Virus record (IMG/VR): IMGVR_UViG_3300042463_000551
Coordinates: 1 to 34,463 of that record
DNA from: a virus
Strand: one strand, 5' to 3'
DNA: 34,463 nucleotides
Both the position numbers and the translations under genes were made by a program. This document shows positions 2,974 through 31,310 of the stretch, one piece after another (position 1 is the stretch's first letter; every line of letters begins with the position of its first letter). The notes beneath the pieces were generated by a model that worked only from the letters and a program-made list of their open reading frames with translations, made no database searches and was not told the DNA's origin.

Positions 2974-3180
2974 ATGAAACTAATTGATTTGCCAACTGAA
3001 AAAAGAAGTTTAACTGAAAATGAGTTGCATTACTATATTCAATATACAGACATTAATCAAATTGAAGATATTAGTATGTATAAGATAAACAAAGATTTTA
3101 AGAATCCAGTAATTATTGAAAAGGGTTATGGTCAACAAGCTACAATGTATTTAATAGTAGCCGAAAAATCAACACAATGA
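2974..3180 (+). CDS. Small hypothetical protein
   Basis: This encodes 68 aa from the ATG one base after the upstream stop codon. A longer version from 2956 would add six residues overlapping the previous gene and is less likely. The protein is soluble-looking, begins MKLIDLPTEKRS and contains a mixed alpha/beta segment around NPVIIEKGYGQQATMYLI. I recognise no motif. It is coupled to the next gene by a 4-nt ATGA overlap. Confidence 0.6.
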   Translation: MKLIDLPTEKRSLTENELHYYIQYTDINQIEDISMYKINKDFKNPVIIEKGYGQQATMYLIVAEKSTQ

Positions 3181-3772: not shown

Positions 3773-4904
3773 CTTTGATTATCTGCATGAGAAAGTAAAC
3801 GACCAACGGATAACCCTTTTACAAGGTGGCACGAGGTCGGGTAAAACTTATTCAGCTATCCTATTTCTAATTGATTACTGCTTACTTTACAAAGGCATGG
3901 AAATAGATATTTGCAGAGATACTTTTACCGCTTTAAAGGCTACAGCATGGAAGGACTTTAAAGATGTTCTAATGTCATTAAATCTTTATGACGATAGGAA
4001 TCACAATAAAACCGACCATACATACGATTTAAGCGGAAATACAATCAGTTATTATGGAGCGGACACACCCGATAAAATACATGGAAGGTCAAGGGATATA
4101 CTTTGGATTAACGAAGCACACCAATTTCCACAAGAAACAATTGACCAATTATTCCCGAGAACAAGGCATAGAATTATTTGCGACTATAACCCAGCATTAG
4201 GATTAGAACACTGGCTCGACCCTTATATTGAAAAATACCCTCCTTTAATTACAACCTACAAAGACAATCCCTATTTAACAGCAGCGCAAGTTGAAGATAT
4301 TGAAAGCAGAAAGCACAATGATTATTGGTGGAAAATTTATGGAAGTGGAGAAAGGGCAACAAGGGAGGGTTCAATATTTACGAATTGGACTATTGGAAAT
4401 TTTAACAATTCGCTTCCTTATGCTTATGGTCAGGATTACGGATTCAGCATTGACCCGACAACATTAATAAAAGTTGCCGTTGATGAAAAAACAAAAACTA
4501 TATTTGCAGATGAATTACTTTATTCAAGTCAAGGGATGGGAACGGATGCTATTTTACAAGCGAATAAACAACTGATTAGCAAACCAACTGATTTGATTAT
4601 CGGAGATAATTCAGAGCCGAGACTAATTGACGATTTGAAGCGAAAAGGATTAAACATAATTGGATGTGAAAAGGGACAAGGGAGTGTATCAGCAGGAATA
4701 ACTAAAATGCAAGATTATCGACTAATAATAACCGAACGAAGCCATAATCTAAAAAAGGAATTATCTAATTATGTTTGGAATGATAAGAAAGCAGGAATAC
4801 CAGTTGATGCCTTTAATCACGGAATTGACTCCCTTAGATATAGTTTTCAACATTTGACTAAACAAAAATACGCTACTACTATAAAACGAAATTCACTAAT
4901 ATGA
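3756..4904 (+). CDS. terL: Terminase large subunit
   Basis: TerL is the DNA-packaging motor and headful or end-cutting nuclease. The 382-aa sequence has Walker A GGTRSGKT at residues 24-31, Walker B DILWINE at 114-120, and a C-terminal RNase H-like nuclease with candidate metal-binding residues Asp227 (GQDYGF), Asp284 (IIGDN) and Asp357 (HGIDSLRYS). It resembles the Terminase_3/6 type. It starts within terS in another frame and shares a 4-nt overlap with the next gene. The start at 3756 keeps the Walker A motif near the N-terminus as usual. All catalytic motifs look intact. Confidence 0.95.
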   Translation: MKANPNFDYLHEKVNDQRITLLQGGTRSGKTYSAILFLIDYCLLYKGMEIDICRDTFTALKATAWKDFKDVLMSLNLYDDRNHNKTDHTYDLSGNTISYYGADTPDKIHGRSRDILWINEAHQFPQETIDQLFPRTRHRIICDYNPALGLEHWLDPYIEKYPPLITTYKDNPYLTAAQVEDIESRKHNDYWWKIYGSGERATREGSIFTNWTIGNFNNSLPYAYGQDYGFSIDPTTLIKVAVDEKTKTIFADELLYSSQGMGTDAILQANKQLISKPTDLIIGDNSEPRLIDDLKRKGLNIIGCEKGQGSVSAGITKMQDYRLIITERSHNLKKELSNYVWNDKKAGIPVDAFNHGIDSLRYSFQHLTKQKYATTIKRNSLI

Positions 4905-5347
4905 TAACCTCAAGTATTGGAACTCAAATAATTCAAATACCAACTTCATGGCATGACGTGCCGTTCGAAAGATTTATTAACTGGATGGATTGCGAAACAG
5001 CATTGGAGCAAGTCAGTTGTTTACTCGATGTTTCTAAAGACCAGTTAGAACGACTCAATAGCGAATCTTTGGCTTCGATTATGTTAGCTACTTCATTCAT
5101 GAGTGAATTGCCCGATGCCTATGTAGCTGAAGAGAATAAAATGGATATTGGAAAAGAATCCTATGGTAAAGTTGAAGTTGCAAAGGCTCATTTAATTGCA
5201 GCGGAAAAACCATTTAAAGCAATGATACCTATACTAAAAGTATATACGGATGTGGACTATTCAAAGCTACCAACTACCATTTCATATCCTTTGGCTGCTT
5301 TTTTTTTGAACAGTTATCACGATTTTTTGACAAATACAAGCGATTAA
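4901..5347 (+). CDS. Tail assembly chaperone-like protein, zero-frame product
   Basis: A 148-aa acidic helical protein beginning with a small beta segment (IIQIPTSWHDVPFERF), followed by the LLDVSKDQLERL region. This layout matches proteins annotated as tail or virion assembly factors in Bacteroidota phages. The zero frame ends 13 codons after a run of nine T residues at 5299-5307, while the -1 frame stays open to 5574. Lambda G/GT and many other siphophages use such a -1 shift to make a longer chaperone that loads the tape measure. Here the gene sits after terL rather than just before the tape measure. The chaperone role is inferred from architecture. Confidence 0.6.
   Translation: MITSSIGTQIIQIPTSWHDVPFERFINWMDCETALEQVSCLLDVSKDQLERLNSESLASIMLATSFMSELPDAYVAEENKMDIGKESYGKVEVAKAHLIAAEKPFKAMIPILKVYTDVDYSKLPTTISYPLAAFFLNSYHDFLTNTSD
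5299..5307 (+). other. Candidate -1 ribosomal frameshift site (T9)
   Basis: In the zero frame the bases read GCT TTT TTT TTG, which contains a perfect slippery heptamer T-TTT-TTT at 5299-5305. Slipping back one base continues into an open frame reading FEQLSRFFDKYK and onward to 5574. A homopolymer sequencing error (a lost T) would give the same picture. Confidence 0.6.
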
Positions 5348-16583: not shown

Positions 16584-16901
16584 ATGGTAACTATTCAATT
16601 CTTAGAAAAGGTTTATGAAGACGTTGTTAGTAAGTCCTATTATGACGTTCCCATCACACAGTTAGCGTTTTATTATAAAGAAATTTATAGTAAGGAATTA
16701 AACACTAAATGCAGCAGTTGTTTAATAGATGCTCATTTGTCAATAAAAAAATATTATCGGGAAAATATTGGTAAGTTTGATGTCGAAAATGCTGAATATG
16801 AAAAGCATAAAAAGTACAAATTGAAATTAGCACTAATTGAGTTCCAAAAATCAGAGCACTTTGAGATTTGCGAATGGATAAAAAACAGAATCAATGGTTA
16901 A
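16584..16901 (+). CDS. Hypothetical protein opening the glycosyltransferase cluster
   Basis: It encodes 105 aa from the ATG four bases after a -7 box; a GTG at 16560 would extend it back into the terminator and is rejected. The protein is helical, with CSSCLIDAH in the middle and a charged C-terminus (HFEICEWIKNRING). The Cys-x-x-Cys plus His might bind metal, but there is no recognisable domain. An 8-nt overlap with the next gene suggests it belongs functionally with the glycosyltransferases. Confidence 0.55.
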   Translation: MVTIQFLEKVYEDVVSKSYYDVPITQLAFYYKEIYSKELNTKCSSCLIDAHLSIKKYYRENIGKFDVENAEYEKHKKYKLKLALIEFQKSEHFEICEWIKNRING

Positions 16902-17532
16902 AACAATAGTAACACGCTCGGCAAATGAAAAATTATACACGCTTGCTAAAGGACTTTGGCAAAGCGATAATAATTTTATTCAGTGTAAACAATTTCAAGG
17001 CTATAACGGTGCTTTAGATTATCTTTTGCATTTGTTTACTCATAACTTTTCAGGCATTATAGTAAATGCAGATGAGGATTTTTTCATTGTCAATGAAGAT
17101 TTATTAGACAATGTAATAAATACAATGGTCGAAAAGGGTTATGCATATTGCGGAGTTCCCGACGGCGGTATAATTAGCCACAGAAATAATTCTGTTTTCA
17201 ATGTTAATCCTTTTTTTAATGTGTTTAATGTAGATTTGATTAAAACAAAAATAGCTTCATTTGACAATTCAAAACAATATCAGTACGCAAATAAAGTTGA
17301 AAAGAATGGAAACTTAAACGAGCCATTTGCAGGGTTTTTATATTGGCTGCATGATAACTTTGTGAGTGCAAATTTCACTGATATAGAAAGTACGGATGGG
17401 GTGAGTACCATAATTAAGATTAATGATAAACCGATGGGCATACATTCATGGTATAGCAGAGAATATGGCAAAGATGTAGCGCAAACTGAAAGAATAGACA
17501 GATGTTATGAATGGGCATTAATTAACCGATGA
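16894..17532 (+). CDS. GT-A-type glycosyltransferase-like protein
   Basis: A 212-aa protein with the look of a nucleotide-sugar transferase. Residues ~50-65 read GIIVNADEDFFIVNED, where strand plus Asp-Glu-Asp matches the metal- and nucleotide-binding acidic motif of the GT-A fold. A His-Ser-Trp motif near the C-terminus (GIHSWYSREYG) could be an acceptor-site element. It overlaps both neighbours, by 8 and 4 nt, and its right neighbour is a clear GT7. The substrate cannot be predicted. A divergent but intact enzyme seems more likely than a remnant. Confidence 0.6.
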   Translation: MVKTIVTRSANEKLYTLAKGLWQSDNNFIQCKQFQGYNGALDYLLHLFTHNFSGIIVNADEDFFIVNEDLLDNVINTMVEKGYAYCGVPDGGIISHRNNSVFNVNPFFNVFNVDLIKTKIASFDNSKQYQYANKVEKNGNLNEPFAGFLYWLHDNFVSANFTDIESTDGVSTIIKINDKPMGIHSWYSREYGKDVAQTERIDRCYEWALINR

Positions 17533-18145: not shown

Positions 18146-18469
18146 ATGAATTTTTCAAAGTACAAACTAAAAGACGGCATTGGTGAACTTGTTTTTAGAG
18201 ATGAAAATAGGACTATTATCACTATTAATGCTGATAATATCACAGATGAAAAGGTAGAAATTGCCAAACTTAATAATAGAGGGCATTGTTTTGTTGAATT
18301 AAGTGCAGTCAAAAAAAAAGACAAGCCGTTAACTATCCAATCGCTGGAGTCGTTATCAACCTTGAACGAAGTACCGACAGAAGAGAATCTTTCTTTGCCA
18401 GCGCAGCCAAACAAAAGGGATGTTTCGGTTACGAAAAAGAAAGCGGGTCGACCTCCGAAATCGAAATAA
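18146..18469 (+). CDS. Small structural-region protein with AT-hook-like tail
   Basis: The 107-aa product has a compact N-terminal domain (residues 1-55, NFSKYKLKDGIGELVFRDEN then IITINADNITDE) and a low-complexity linker. It ends in KKKAGRPPKSK, an AT-hook-like basic tail common at the end of small Bacteroidota phage proteins encoded near portal genes. At codons 56-58 a run of nine A provides a -1 slippery site, and a GT25 reading frame begins at that point in the -1 frame. The last 150 nt of this gene are therefore read in two frames. Confidence 0.65.
   Translation: MNFSKYKLKDGIGELVFRDENRTIITINADNITDEKVEIAKLNNRGHCFVELSAVKKKDKPLTIQSLESLSTLNEVPTEENLSLPAQPNKRDVSVTKKKAGRPPKSK
18311..18319 (+). 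other. Candidate -1 ribosomal frameshift site (A9)
   Basis: In the zero frame the bases read GTC AAA AAA AAA GAC, containing A-AAA-AAA followed by G, a classic strong slippery heptamer. A -1 slip enters the frame of the GT25 domain seven codons before its first conserved strand. No other start codon can reach that domain. A 9-A run in another gene (30981-30989) causes no frame break, so general homopolymer errors are not obvious. Confidence 0.6.
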
Positions 18470-18963
18470 TACAAGCCGTTAACGGCAAAGAAATTAAAAG
18501 CAAAATAGCAGGCGTTACTGATAATGAGTACGCTTGTATTCAATCGCATTTAAAGGCGTTAAAATATGCAAAGAAACAAGGCTTTGAGTGTGTTGCTATA
18601 TTTGAAGATGATATACTTTTTACAGATACTTTTATTAAAGATTTTCAACTTTATTTATCGGAACTTCCCGATAATTTCCATATCCTTTATTTAGGCGGTT
18701 CGTTTGGTAGACCTCCGCAATACTATGACAAGTTTTTTACCAAACAAATCTACACATGGGGCGCATTTGCTTACGTTGTGCATAAGAGAGCATATAACAA
18801 TTTAATTAATTTATTAAGTAAGGCTAACAAAATAGTAGATGCTATGTATATTGACTACCAAAAACAATATCTTTGCATTAAGCCGAATAAAAAATTGGTG
18901 ATACATCCGCAAGGTGTTTCAACTATTAAAGAAAAGTTTGTAAACTATCAGAATATTGTATGA
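18319..18963 (+). CDS. GT25-family glycosyltransferase, no canonical start
   Basis: Frame -1 relative to the preceding gene is open from 18298 and encodes a GT25 (LPS glycosyltransferase-like) domain: IAGVVINLERSTDRRESFF, then IQAVNGKEI, CIQSHLKALKYAKKQ, VAIFEDDILF (the Glu-Asp-Asp metal site), LYLGGSFGRPP and TWGAFAYVVHKRAY. Between the upstream stop at 18295 and the domain there is no ATG, GTG or TTG; only an ATT at 18298 could be considered. The likely expression route is -1 frameshifting at the A9 site, giving a ~272-aa fusion with the N-terminal domain of the 18146 gene. The stop overlaps the portal ATG (ATGA), which supports genuine translation. Confidence 0.75.
   Translation, partial: RQAVNYPIAGVVINLERSTDRRESFFASAAKQKGCFGYEKESGSTSEIEIIQAVNGKEIKSKIAGVTDNEYACIQSHLKALKYAKKQGFECVAIFEDDILFTDTFIKDFQLYLSELPDNFHILYLGGSFGRPPQYYDKFFTKQIYTWGAFAYVVHKRAYNNLINLLSKANKIVDAMYIDYQKQYLCIKPNKKLVIHPQGVSTIKEKFVNYQNIV
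18321..18333. repeat. 13-bp direct repeat, copy 1
   Basis: ACAAGCCGTTAAC occurs here and at 18471-18483, exactly 150 bp apart. The two copies bound the region read in two frames. It may mark an old duplication or insertion junction, or be chance. Confidence 0.7.
18471..18483. repeat. 13-bp direct repeat, copy 2
   Basis: Second copy of ACAAGCCGTTAAC, lying just after the stop codon of the 18146 gene. In the GT25 frame both copies encode Gln-Ala-Val-Asn. Confidence 0.7.
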
Positions 18964-20090
18964 GTAAATTCAAAAAAACATCAAAAGTACATTTTAGGAA
19001 TATACTCCCTACAACTTTCGAAAACAAAGCATTAGGCTATCATAAGTTCGGATGGAATGATAACTTGCCTTTAGAGATAATCGACATTATAAACAATTCA
19101 GGAACGGCAAAAAAAGCAGCCAAAAAATATGCGGAGTATATAGAGTCCGATGGGTTCGTAAGTGAGCAAGCATCTTTTTTTAAAGTAAATGAAAAAGAAA
19201 CGGCTGATAAATTACTTTCAAAATCTGCTTTATCTTTTGCTTATATGGATTGTGCGGTGTTTCATATTTCGAGATTAGGCAATGGTAGAGTTGGAAAAGT
19301 TACATTAATGCCGTTCCAAAAGATTAGAAAGTCTTTAGATGGGAACTGGATGTATAATCCGACTATTGGACTTGAGAAATTAGATAAAAACGCATGGATT
19401 AAGTTGCAAGACTTTCAGGGTGAAGTGGCAAGTTTTGAGGCTATGACTAAAAACATCACAGATTTTAATTCTAATGGTGAAATTTATTATGTATTTGACG
19501 GCAATCCTTTTGATTCGGATGTTTATGCAATTCCTGACTTTTTAGCCAGCGTTGAAGATGTAAAAACTTCATCAGAACTTTCTAAAATGGATTATGAAGC
19601 CGTTCTAAATGGTTTTAATTTAGGTGGTGTTATGACTTTCTTTGGCGTTGATGACAATGAAAAAGGCGAAGATGGATTAACGGATAGACAAAGAATAGAG
19701 GGTGAAATGGTGCAGTTTACGGGCATGAAGAAAAACAAAGACGGTTTAACTTCACGTTTTGCGGTATTGGTAAACTTTGCTGAAATGGCGGAACAAGCAC
19801 CAATATTTTCAGGCAATGACCCTAAACCAATTTTAGAGGCAAGTAATTCAAAAAGAGATATAATAGAGAGAGCCGTTTGTAGACTTTGGGGCGTGCATCC
19901 AGTTTTATTAGGATATGCAGAGGCGGCTGTTTTAGGGAATGATAATGCAATAAAGCAGGCAATGGCAATGCTTAGACAAACAGTTAATCCAGTTCAAAGA
20001 TTAATTACGCAAGCGTTTAGAAATATGTTTGGCGCTCAAATAGACTGGACTATTTCTGAATTTGGTATAACTAAAGATATTGTACAATGA
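18960..20090 (+). CDS. Portal protein
   Basis: The 376-aa protein has the general layout of siphophage portals: an N-terminal wing (FGWNDNLPLEIIDIINNSGTA), beta segments around VTLMPFQKIRKS and NGEIYYVFDGNPF, and a helical stem/crown region. The C-terminal part reads KRDIIERAVCRLWGVHPVLLGYAE, then IKQAMAMLRQTVNPVQRLITQ, which is very portal-like. The portal forms the dodecameric channel through which TerL packages DNA. It lies ~14 kb from terL, which is unusual. It is coupled to the GT25 frame upstream and the adaptor downstream by 4-nt overlaps. Confidence 0.82.
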   Translation: MSKFKKTSKVHFRNILPTTFENKALGYHKFGWNDNLPLEIIDIINNSGTAKKAAKKYAEYIESDGFVSEQASFFKVNEKETADKLLSKSALSFAYMDCAVFHISRLGNGRVGKVTLMPFQKIRKSLDGNWMYNPTIGLEKLDKNAWIKLQDFQGEVASFEAMTKNITDFNSNGEIYYVFDGNPFDSDVYAIPDFLASVEDVKTSSELSKMDYEAVLNGFNLGGVMTFFGVDDNEKGEDGLTDRQRIEGEMVQFTGMKKNKDGLTSRFAVLVNFAEMAEQAPIFSGNDPKPILEASNSKRDIIERAVCRLWGVHPVLLGYAEAAVLGNDNAIKQAMAMLRQTVNPVQRLITQAFRNMFGAQIDWTISEFGITKDIVQ

Positions 20091-30894: not shown

Positions 30895-31310
30895 ACAGAC
30901 GAAACCAAGTATCATTTACTCGATTCTACGAAAAGGAATATGAGCCTAAGACATTTTCACACATTCATTTTATGGTCGGCAAAAAAAAACCACAGCCAAA
31001 AGACATAACAAATAATGGAGTAAAGCATGAGGAACTTTTAAAGCTGGTTTCTAAATTTACTGGCATTACAATGGAGAAAATACAAGGCAATTCAAGACTA
31101 ACTGATATTGTGATGGTTAGACATATCCATTTTTATTTAGCTTGTAAATATTGTAGCATGACTATTAAAGAAATCGGTAAAATAAACAATCGTGACCATT
31201 CGAGTGTAATACATGGGAGGGATAGGATAACTGCAGATTTGAAATTTGATGGGAAATACACCGATAAGATTAGGGATTATATTGGTCAGATAGTGGCGAG
31301 TATTAATTAA
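30882..31310 (+). CDS. Stand-alone DnaA domain IV-like protein
   Basis: The 142-aa protein (ATG 30882; a GTG at 30876 is an alternative) has an N-terminal basic tail and then a domain like DnaA domain IV: EELLKLVSKFTGITMEKIQG, IVMVRHIHFYLACKYCSM, and IGKINNRDHSSVIHG. The RDHSSVIHG signature contacts DnaA-box DNA in the host protein. The AAA+ ATPase part is absent. It may recognise a phage origin or compete with host DnaA. The stop codon TAA forms the first bases of the repeat at 31308. Confidence 0.78.
   Translation: MQIINRRNQVSFTRFYEKEYEPKTFSHIHFMVGKKKPQPKDITNNGVKHEELLKLVSKFTGITMEKIQGNSRLTDIVMVRHIHFYLACKYCSMTIKEIGKINNRDHSSVIHGRDRITADLKFDGKYTDKIRDYIGQIVASIN

Follow-up and report, generated by a model that had tools for sequence, protein, structure and literature searches.

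How can a phage make a complete glycosyltransferase when the reading frame of the enzyme begins inside another gene and has no start codon in front of it? This question is raised by a locus in the window analyzed here (the whole stretch of DNA, 34,463 bases), a virus record whose genes include those for terminase, head protease, portal and endolysin. Among the matches listed, the nearest relatives of the terminase belonged to Bacteroides phages (32-35% identity), which suggests that the host of the phage is a member of Bacteroidota. The gene of interest (gene 1) carries a glycosyltransferase family 25 (GT25) domain in its -1 frame, and both are located between a gene for a GT7-like enzyme and the portal gene. 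The features of this region are listed below (window positions; L006 and L007 are relatives described later).

16894-17532, plus strand: conserved 212-aa protein, 5' of the GT7 gene, with a homologue in L006 and L007
17529-18137, plus strand: GT7-like galactosyltransferase gene (PF02709, PF13733), directly 5' of gene 1
18146-18469, plus strand: gene 1, zero frame; 107-aa protein with a predicted folded N-terminal domain (about residues 1-51) and a predicted disordered, Lys-rich tail ending in KKKAGRPPKSK
18311-18319, plus strand: putative slippage site of nine A residues (A9), read as AAA AAA AAA in the zero frame and including A_AAA_AAA; reading of GT25 continues from the AGA at 18319
18319-18963, plus strand: predicted GT25 glycosyltransferase domain in the -1 frame (PF01755, PHROG), 214 aa after the slip; the frame is open from 18298
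18320-18469, plus strand: dual-coded stretch, containing the gene 1 tail (zero frame) and the first ~50 GT25 codons (-1 frame)
18960-18963, plus strand: ATGA, in which the stop of GT25 and the start of the portal gene overlap, kept in all relatives
18960-20090, plus strand: portal protein gene (phrog_11226, E 7e-18; under the Pfam Phage_portal cut-off)

The protein encoded at 16894-17532 had no match in profile searches of Pfam and PHROG; judged by eye, it is possibly a further sugar enzyme.

According to the original prediction, the first ~50 codons of an intact GT25 domain lie out of frame within gene 1 and no ATG, GTG or TTG precedes the domain, and the window bears this out. The -1 frame matched PF01755 (E 2.9e-15, 57.1 bits, cut-off 24) over residues 19-132 of the open frame, so that the match begins inside the overlap with gene 1, and PHROG glucosyltransferase 2835 (E 5e-9). 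Its N-terminal INL..R..DRR and acidic FEDD motifs aligned with those of procollagen galactosyltransferase 1 and were invariant across six sequences. By both profile and motifs, the product is a predicted member of the GT25 family, which is established as acting in sugar transfer on lipopolysaccharide and collagen. Structure prediction for this domain, based on a shallow alignment, gave a poor model (mean pLDDT 41.5) that was set aside because of its low confidence; thus, the fold assignment rests on sequence profiles. The first ATG, GTG or TTG of the GT25 frame in the window is the GTG at 18778, which lies deep within the domain and would leave 61 aa. Without a usual start codon 5' of the domain, ordinary initiation therefore cannot yield a complete GT25.

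For gene 1, structure prediction gave a pLDDT of ~91 for residues 11-50 and ~55 for the tail, and the model confidently points to a small beta-alpha domain extending to about residue 51, followed by a disordered tail. This N-terminal domain had no match in Pfam, PHROG or NCBIfam and none with a Z of 2 or more in the PDB. A fold search returned weak viral matches alone, the best of which was an uncharacterised phage protein (E 1.8e-3), with a head-to-tail connector among the others. The end of the zero-frame tail (18437-18466) looks AT-hook-like, and its GRP and KSK are kept in all relatives; an AT-hook assignment was rejected, as the best Pfam score of the window protein was under the cut-off (E 0.76).

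The A9 run lies where a -1 slip would join the two frames, as had been noted, and corresponds to residues 56-58 of gene 1, just past the folded domain. Either a -1 slip at this site or one extra A in the mRNA would give the identical fusion of the N-terminal domain and GT25 (58 + 214 = 272 aa). The occurrence of A9 alone is not rare: three such runs were observed in the A-rich window and about six were expected under a second-order Markov model. It is the location and conservation of this run that exceed chance.

Conservation was assessed in six viral contigs (L002-L007) of two clades, assembled from several metagenomes; L004 is identical to L005 in this stretch, so that six distinct sequences, including the window, could be compared. 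GT25 identity to the window was 91-94% in L002-L005 and 65-68% in L006-L007. The layout was the same in all six relatives: the run is A9 or A10 in an unchanged register, GT25 occupies the -1 frame, ATGA is shared with the portal gene, and both frames are conserved. Since the ATGA is common to all contigs, the GT25 frame behaves like any other gene of the operon. Beyond these contigs, gene 1 and the portal gene had no match among 50,697 phage records, GT25 had only remote matches there (28-42% identity), and bacterial-genome scans for relatives found nothing. As these searches gave no close relatives, the family rests on IMG/VR contigs. Homopolymers are error-prone on some sequencing platforms and the run sits at the junction, so that GT25 might be suspected to be a broken downstream gene produced by sequencing error or decay. 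However, the register was identical in contigs of several metagenomes and two clades, the ATGA with the portal gene was retained, and both frames are under selection as described below; this explanation is hardly credible.

The run consists of nine A residues in the window, L002 and L003 and of ten in L004-L007. The original prediction had regarded ten A residues as the mark of a plain fusion gene. The tenth A was indeed found, in the alleles of three relatives, yet the expected fusion did not come with it, because neighbouring substitutions leave the register unchanged: in L004/L005 the additional A arose by substitution (GAC to AGC), and the run of L006/L007 is set in different codons (GAA AAA AAA AAT). 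Such long homopolymers mutate readily and phase variation is typical of glycosyltransferase genes, and replication slippage could thus alter the run length and toggle the fusion between phage genomes. Homopolymers have also been listed as one basis of phase variation (PMC3711429). Nevertheless, all seven contigs, whether A9 or A10, were in the same separate-frame register, with each A10 explained by substitution, and a DNA-pattern scan for more or phase-switched alleles returned the same six contigs only. In addition, the zero frame of the overlap is strongly selected, a constraint that would be superfluous if this frame served only as the 'off' state. Phase variation is therefore very unlikely.

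The more distant contigs further constrain where the frame changes. In L006/L007, a TGA of the GT25 frame directly adjoins the A-run, and the change of frame must therefore occur at or just past the run. The same contigs bear on the idea that GT25 initiates by itself on a non-AUG codon within gene 1, for which the window offers an ATT at 18298 and an ATC in the 18340 region, and L003 an in-frame TTG 5' of the run. However, none of the near-cognate codons 5' of the domain is conserved: ATT and TTG are missing in L006/L007, whose open frame begins at the A-run itself, and the sole common ATC encodes the isoleucine of the INLERS motif. No relative has a conserved start of GT25's own, and we regard self-initiation as highly improbable. 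It should be noted that in L003 (positions 2980-3000) the GT25 frame reaches further upstream and includes a TTG absent from the other contigs.

The claim that both frames are used was supported by several lines of analysis. Among close relatives, the variable columns of the overlap numbered 2, 5 and 10 at zero-frame positions 1, 2 and 3, respectively, the pattern of a selected protein. The wobble position of GT25 in the overlap was held down relative to that of the portal gene (5 of 49 and 109 of 375, respectively; Fisher p 0.004) and did not differ from that in the rest of GT25 (25 of 162). Synonymous shuffles of the GT25 frame left the zero frame open in only 0.6% of cases, and those of the zero frame left the GT25 frame open in only 0.08%. 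The overlap of L006/L007 contains two three-base insertions, both frames being preserved, and the identity between the window and L006 in the overlap was 0.65 and 0.62 in the two frames. We also evolved the overlap in silico to the observed difference count with one frame selected (400 runs per setting); these simulations were simple (fixed substitution bias, several omega values) and the margin was large. For the two distant pairs, 84-97% of the runs acquired stop codons in the frame without selection, and none of them reached the observed identities in both frames. By sequence comparison, the overlap is evidently a dual-coded pair in which both frames are under purifying selection. Of the two, the GT25 frame probably came first and the tail of gene 1 was overprinted upon it, because the overlap motifs (INLERS.DRR) are common to distant GT25s, including procollagen galactosyltransferase 1. 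A 13-bp direct repeat (18321-18333 and 18471-18483), said to bound the doubly read region, is present in the window and not conserved in the relatives. It is thus probably incidental, and its absence from the relatives also led us to reject it as a recombination scar.

Because the relatives keep the layout and both frames, and one-frame simulations essentially never match, recoding is strongly supported. Gene 1 and GT25 very probably form a conserved recoding gene, from which the 107-aa protein and the 272-aa fusion would be made with a common N-terminal domain, as proposed originally; the conserved layout and constant register favor this reading. Expression of gene 1 would mostly yield the 107-aa protein. 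In a fraction of expression events, decoding would slip to the -1 frame on the nine or ten A residues, directly after the folded domain, and in the slipped product a short basic linker would connect the N-terminal domain with the entire GT25. The slip could occur in two ways, either through insertion of one extra A into the mRNA by RNA polymerase or through a -1 ribosomal slip on A_AAA_AAA.

Bacterial RNA polymerase is known to slip on runs of at least nine A residues (PMC1088944, PMC5009743). Nine is also the run length at which selection against slippage appears in many bacteria, and conserved overlapping open reading frames together with a conserved run have been taken as a sign of purposeful slippage (Baranov et al., PMC1088944). 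In our data, a homopolymer of at least nine A residues was present in 7 of 7 contigs, at the overlap of the same open reading frame layout and without indels across homologues. The ribosomal explanation, a programmed -1 frameshift at A_AAA_AAA that sets a fixed ratio of short protein to fusion as in lambda G/GT, is a serious contender to which we give somewhat less than even chances. The zero-frame A_AAA_AAA, a slippery heptamer (X_XXY_YYZ) and a good ribosomal slip site, was likewise in frame at the junction in all seven contigs, and -1 shifts are common in tailed phages, some of them without evident stimulators (PMC5009743). However, a stimulatory hairpin, expected 5-9 bases 3' of such a site, was looked for and not found: pseudoknot-free folding was no better than that of shuffles (z 0.1 to 0.7), and the consensus fold had one compensatory pair and no covarying adjacent stem, its main stem starting >20 bases past the run. 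The conserved run also exceeds the seven bases that a ribosomal slip requires. Since the full run of at least nine A residues is kept, and not just seven bases, and no stimulatory hairpin could be recognised, we lean slightly toward slippage by RNA polymerase.

A second conserved junction in the same phages was also counted in favor of transcriptional slippage. A T9 run (5299-5307) is present in the gene at 4901-5347 (148 aa), whose -1 frame continues for 75 codons past the stop, to 5574, without a start of its own. L039-L042 (96-99% identity) and L043 (51% identity) all retained this extension together with the T9 and the zero frame. The 4901-5574 gene had no family match; its layout resembles that of the tail assembly chaperone pairs of the G/GT type. 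The window has four A9/T9 runs, with conserved frame junctions at two of them. The further A9 runs (2683-2691 and 30981-30989) are located one by the end of a NinG-like gene and the other by a likely start, and a slip scan found no long -1 extension at either.

With regard to function, the GT25 adjoins the GT7 enzyme in the late block, next to the portal gene. A virion protein and a host surface sugar are both reasonable candidates for its target. Our guess is that GT25 would act as a partner of the GT7 enzyme late in infection, glycosylating a virion or host-surface component where the N-terminal domain places it; that this domain tethers the enzyme to its target is a plausible hypothesis. 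A more specific scheme, in which a fixed minority of the copies of a small virion-assembly protein carries GT25, so that this enzyme, made by recoding and tethered, reaches the particle or its assembly site or is incorporated there to modify the virion, is put forward as speculation that we consider rather unlikely. If the recoding is confirmed, it would equip a fixed proportion of a phage late protein with an enzyme, and not with a structural domain, and the same 150 bases would encode both an ancient enzyme motif and a more recent protein tail. Gene prediction programs that depend on a start codon overlook or shorten this GT25, and recoded phage enzymes are probably under-counted. Because one small phage lineage has two junctions at nine-base homopolymers, the choice between ribosome and RNA polymerase is also directly testable. 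In a literature search that was not exhaustive, we found no report of a phage glycosyltransferase made by frameshifting, and we know of no transcriptional slippage that produces a phage enzyme fusion.

Several known systems resemble this locus in part. As in the lambda G/GT tail assembly chaperone and its -1 kin, a small phage protein encoded in a late block would here receive a -1 C-terminal extension through overlapping frames. In contrast to lambda, the extension here is a predicted GT25 enzyme and not a chaperone domain, the N-terminal domain is beta-rich, and the locus lies just before the portal gene and not before the tape measure gene. A short protein with a minority form bearing an added domain is also found in the extensions of T3/T7 gene 10, phage A2 and Listeria PSA (PMC5009743). 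Unlike these Ig-like or C-terminal extensions of capsid and tail proteins, the added domain is here a predicted glycosyltransferase, and gene 1 is no known capsid or tail protein. A conserved run of at least nine A residues at a frame overlap, with no obvious structure, is shared with the transcriptional slippage on A9/T9 of Thermus dnaX, IS elements and Shigella mxiE/spa13 (PMC1088944, PMC5009743); at our locus, slippage at the RNA level is a prediction from sequence. Finally, the mycobacteriophages Che8 and Rita also encode glycosyltransferases, cited in PMC11256854 as proposed to modify virion proteins. Their enzymes are ordinary genes, whereas the GT25 described here would be fused by recoding. 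Thus, the locus appears to be a known kind of phage recoding in a new form, in which the extension is an enzyme.
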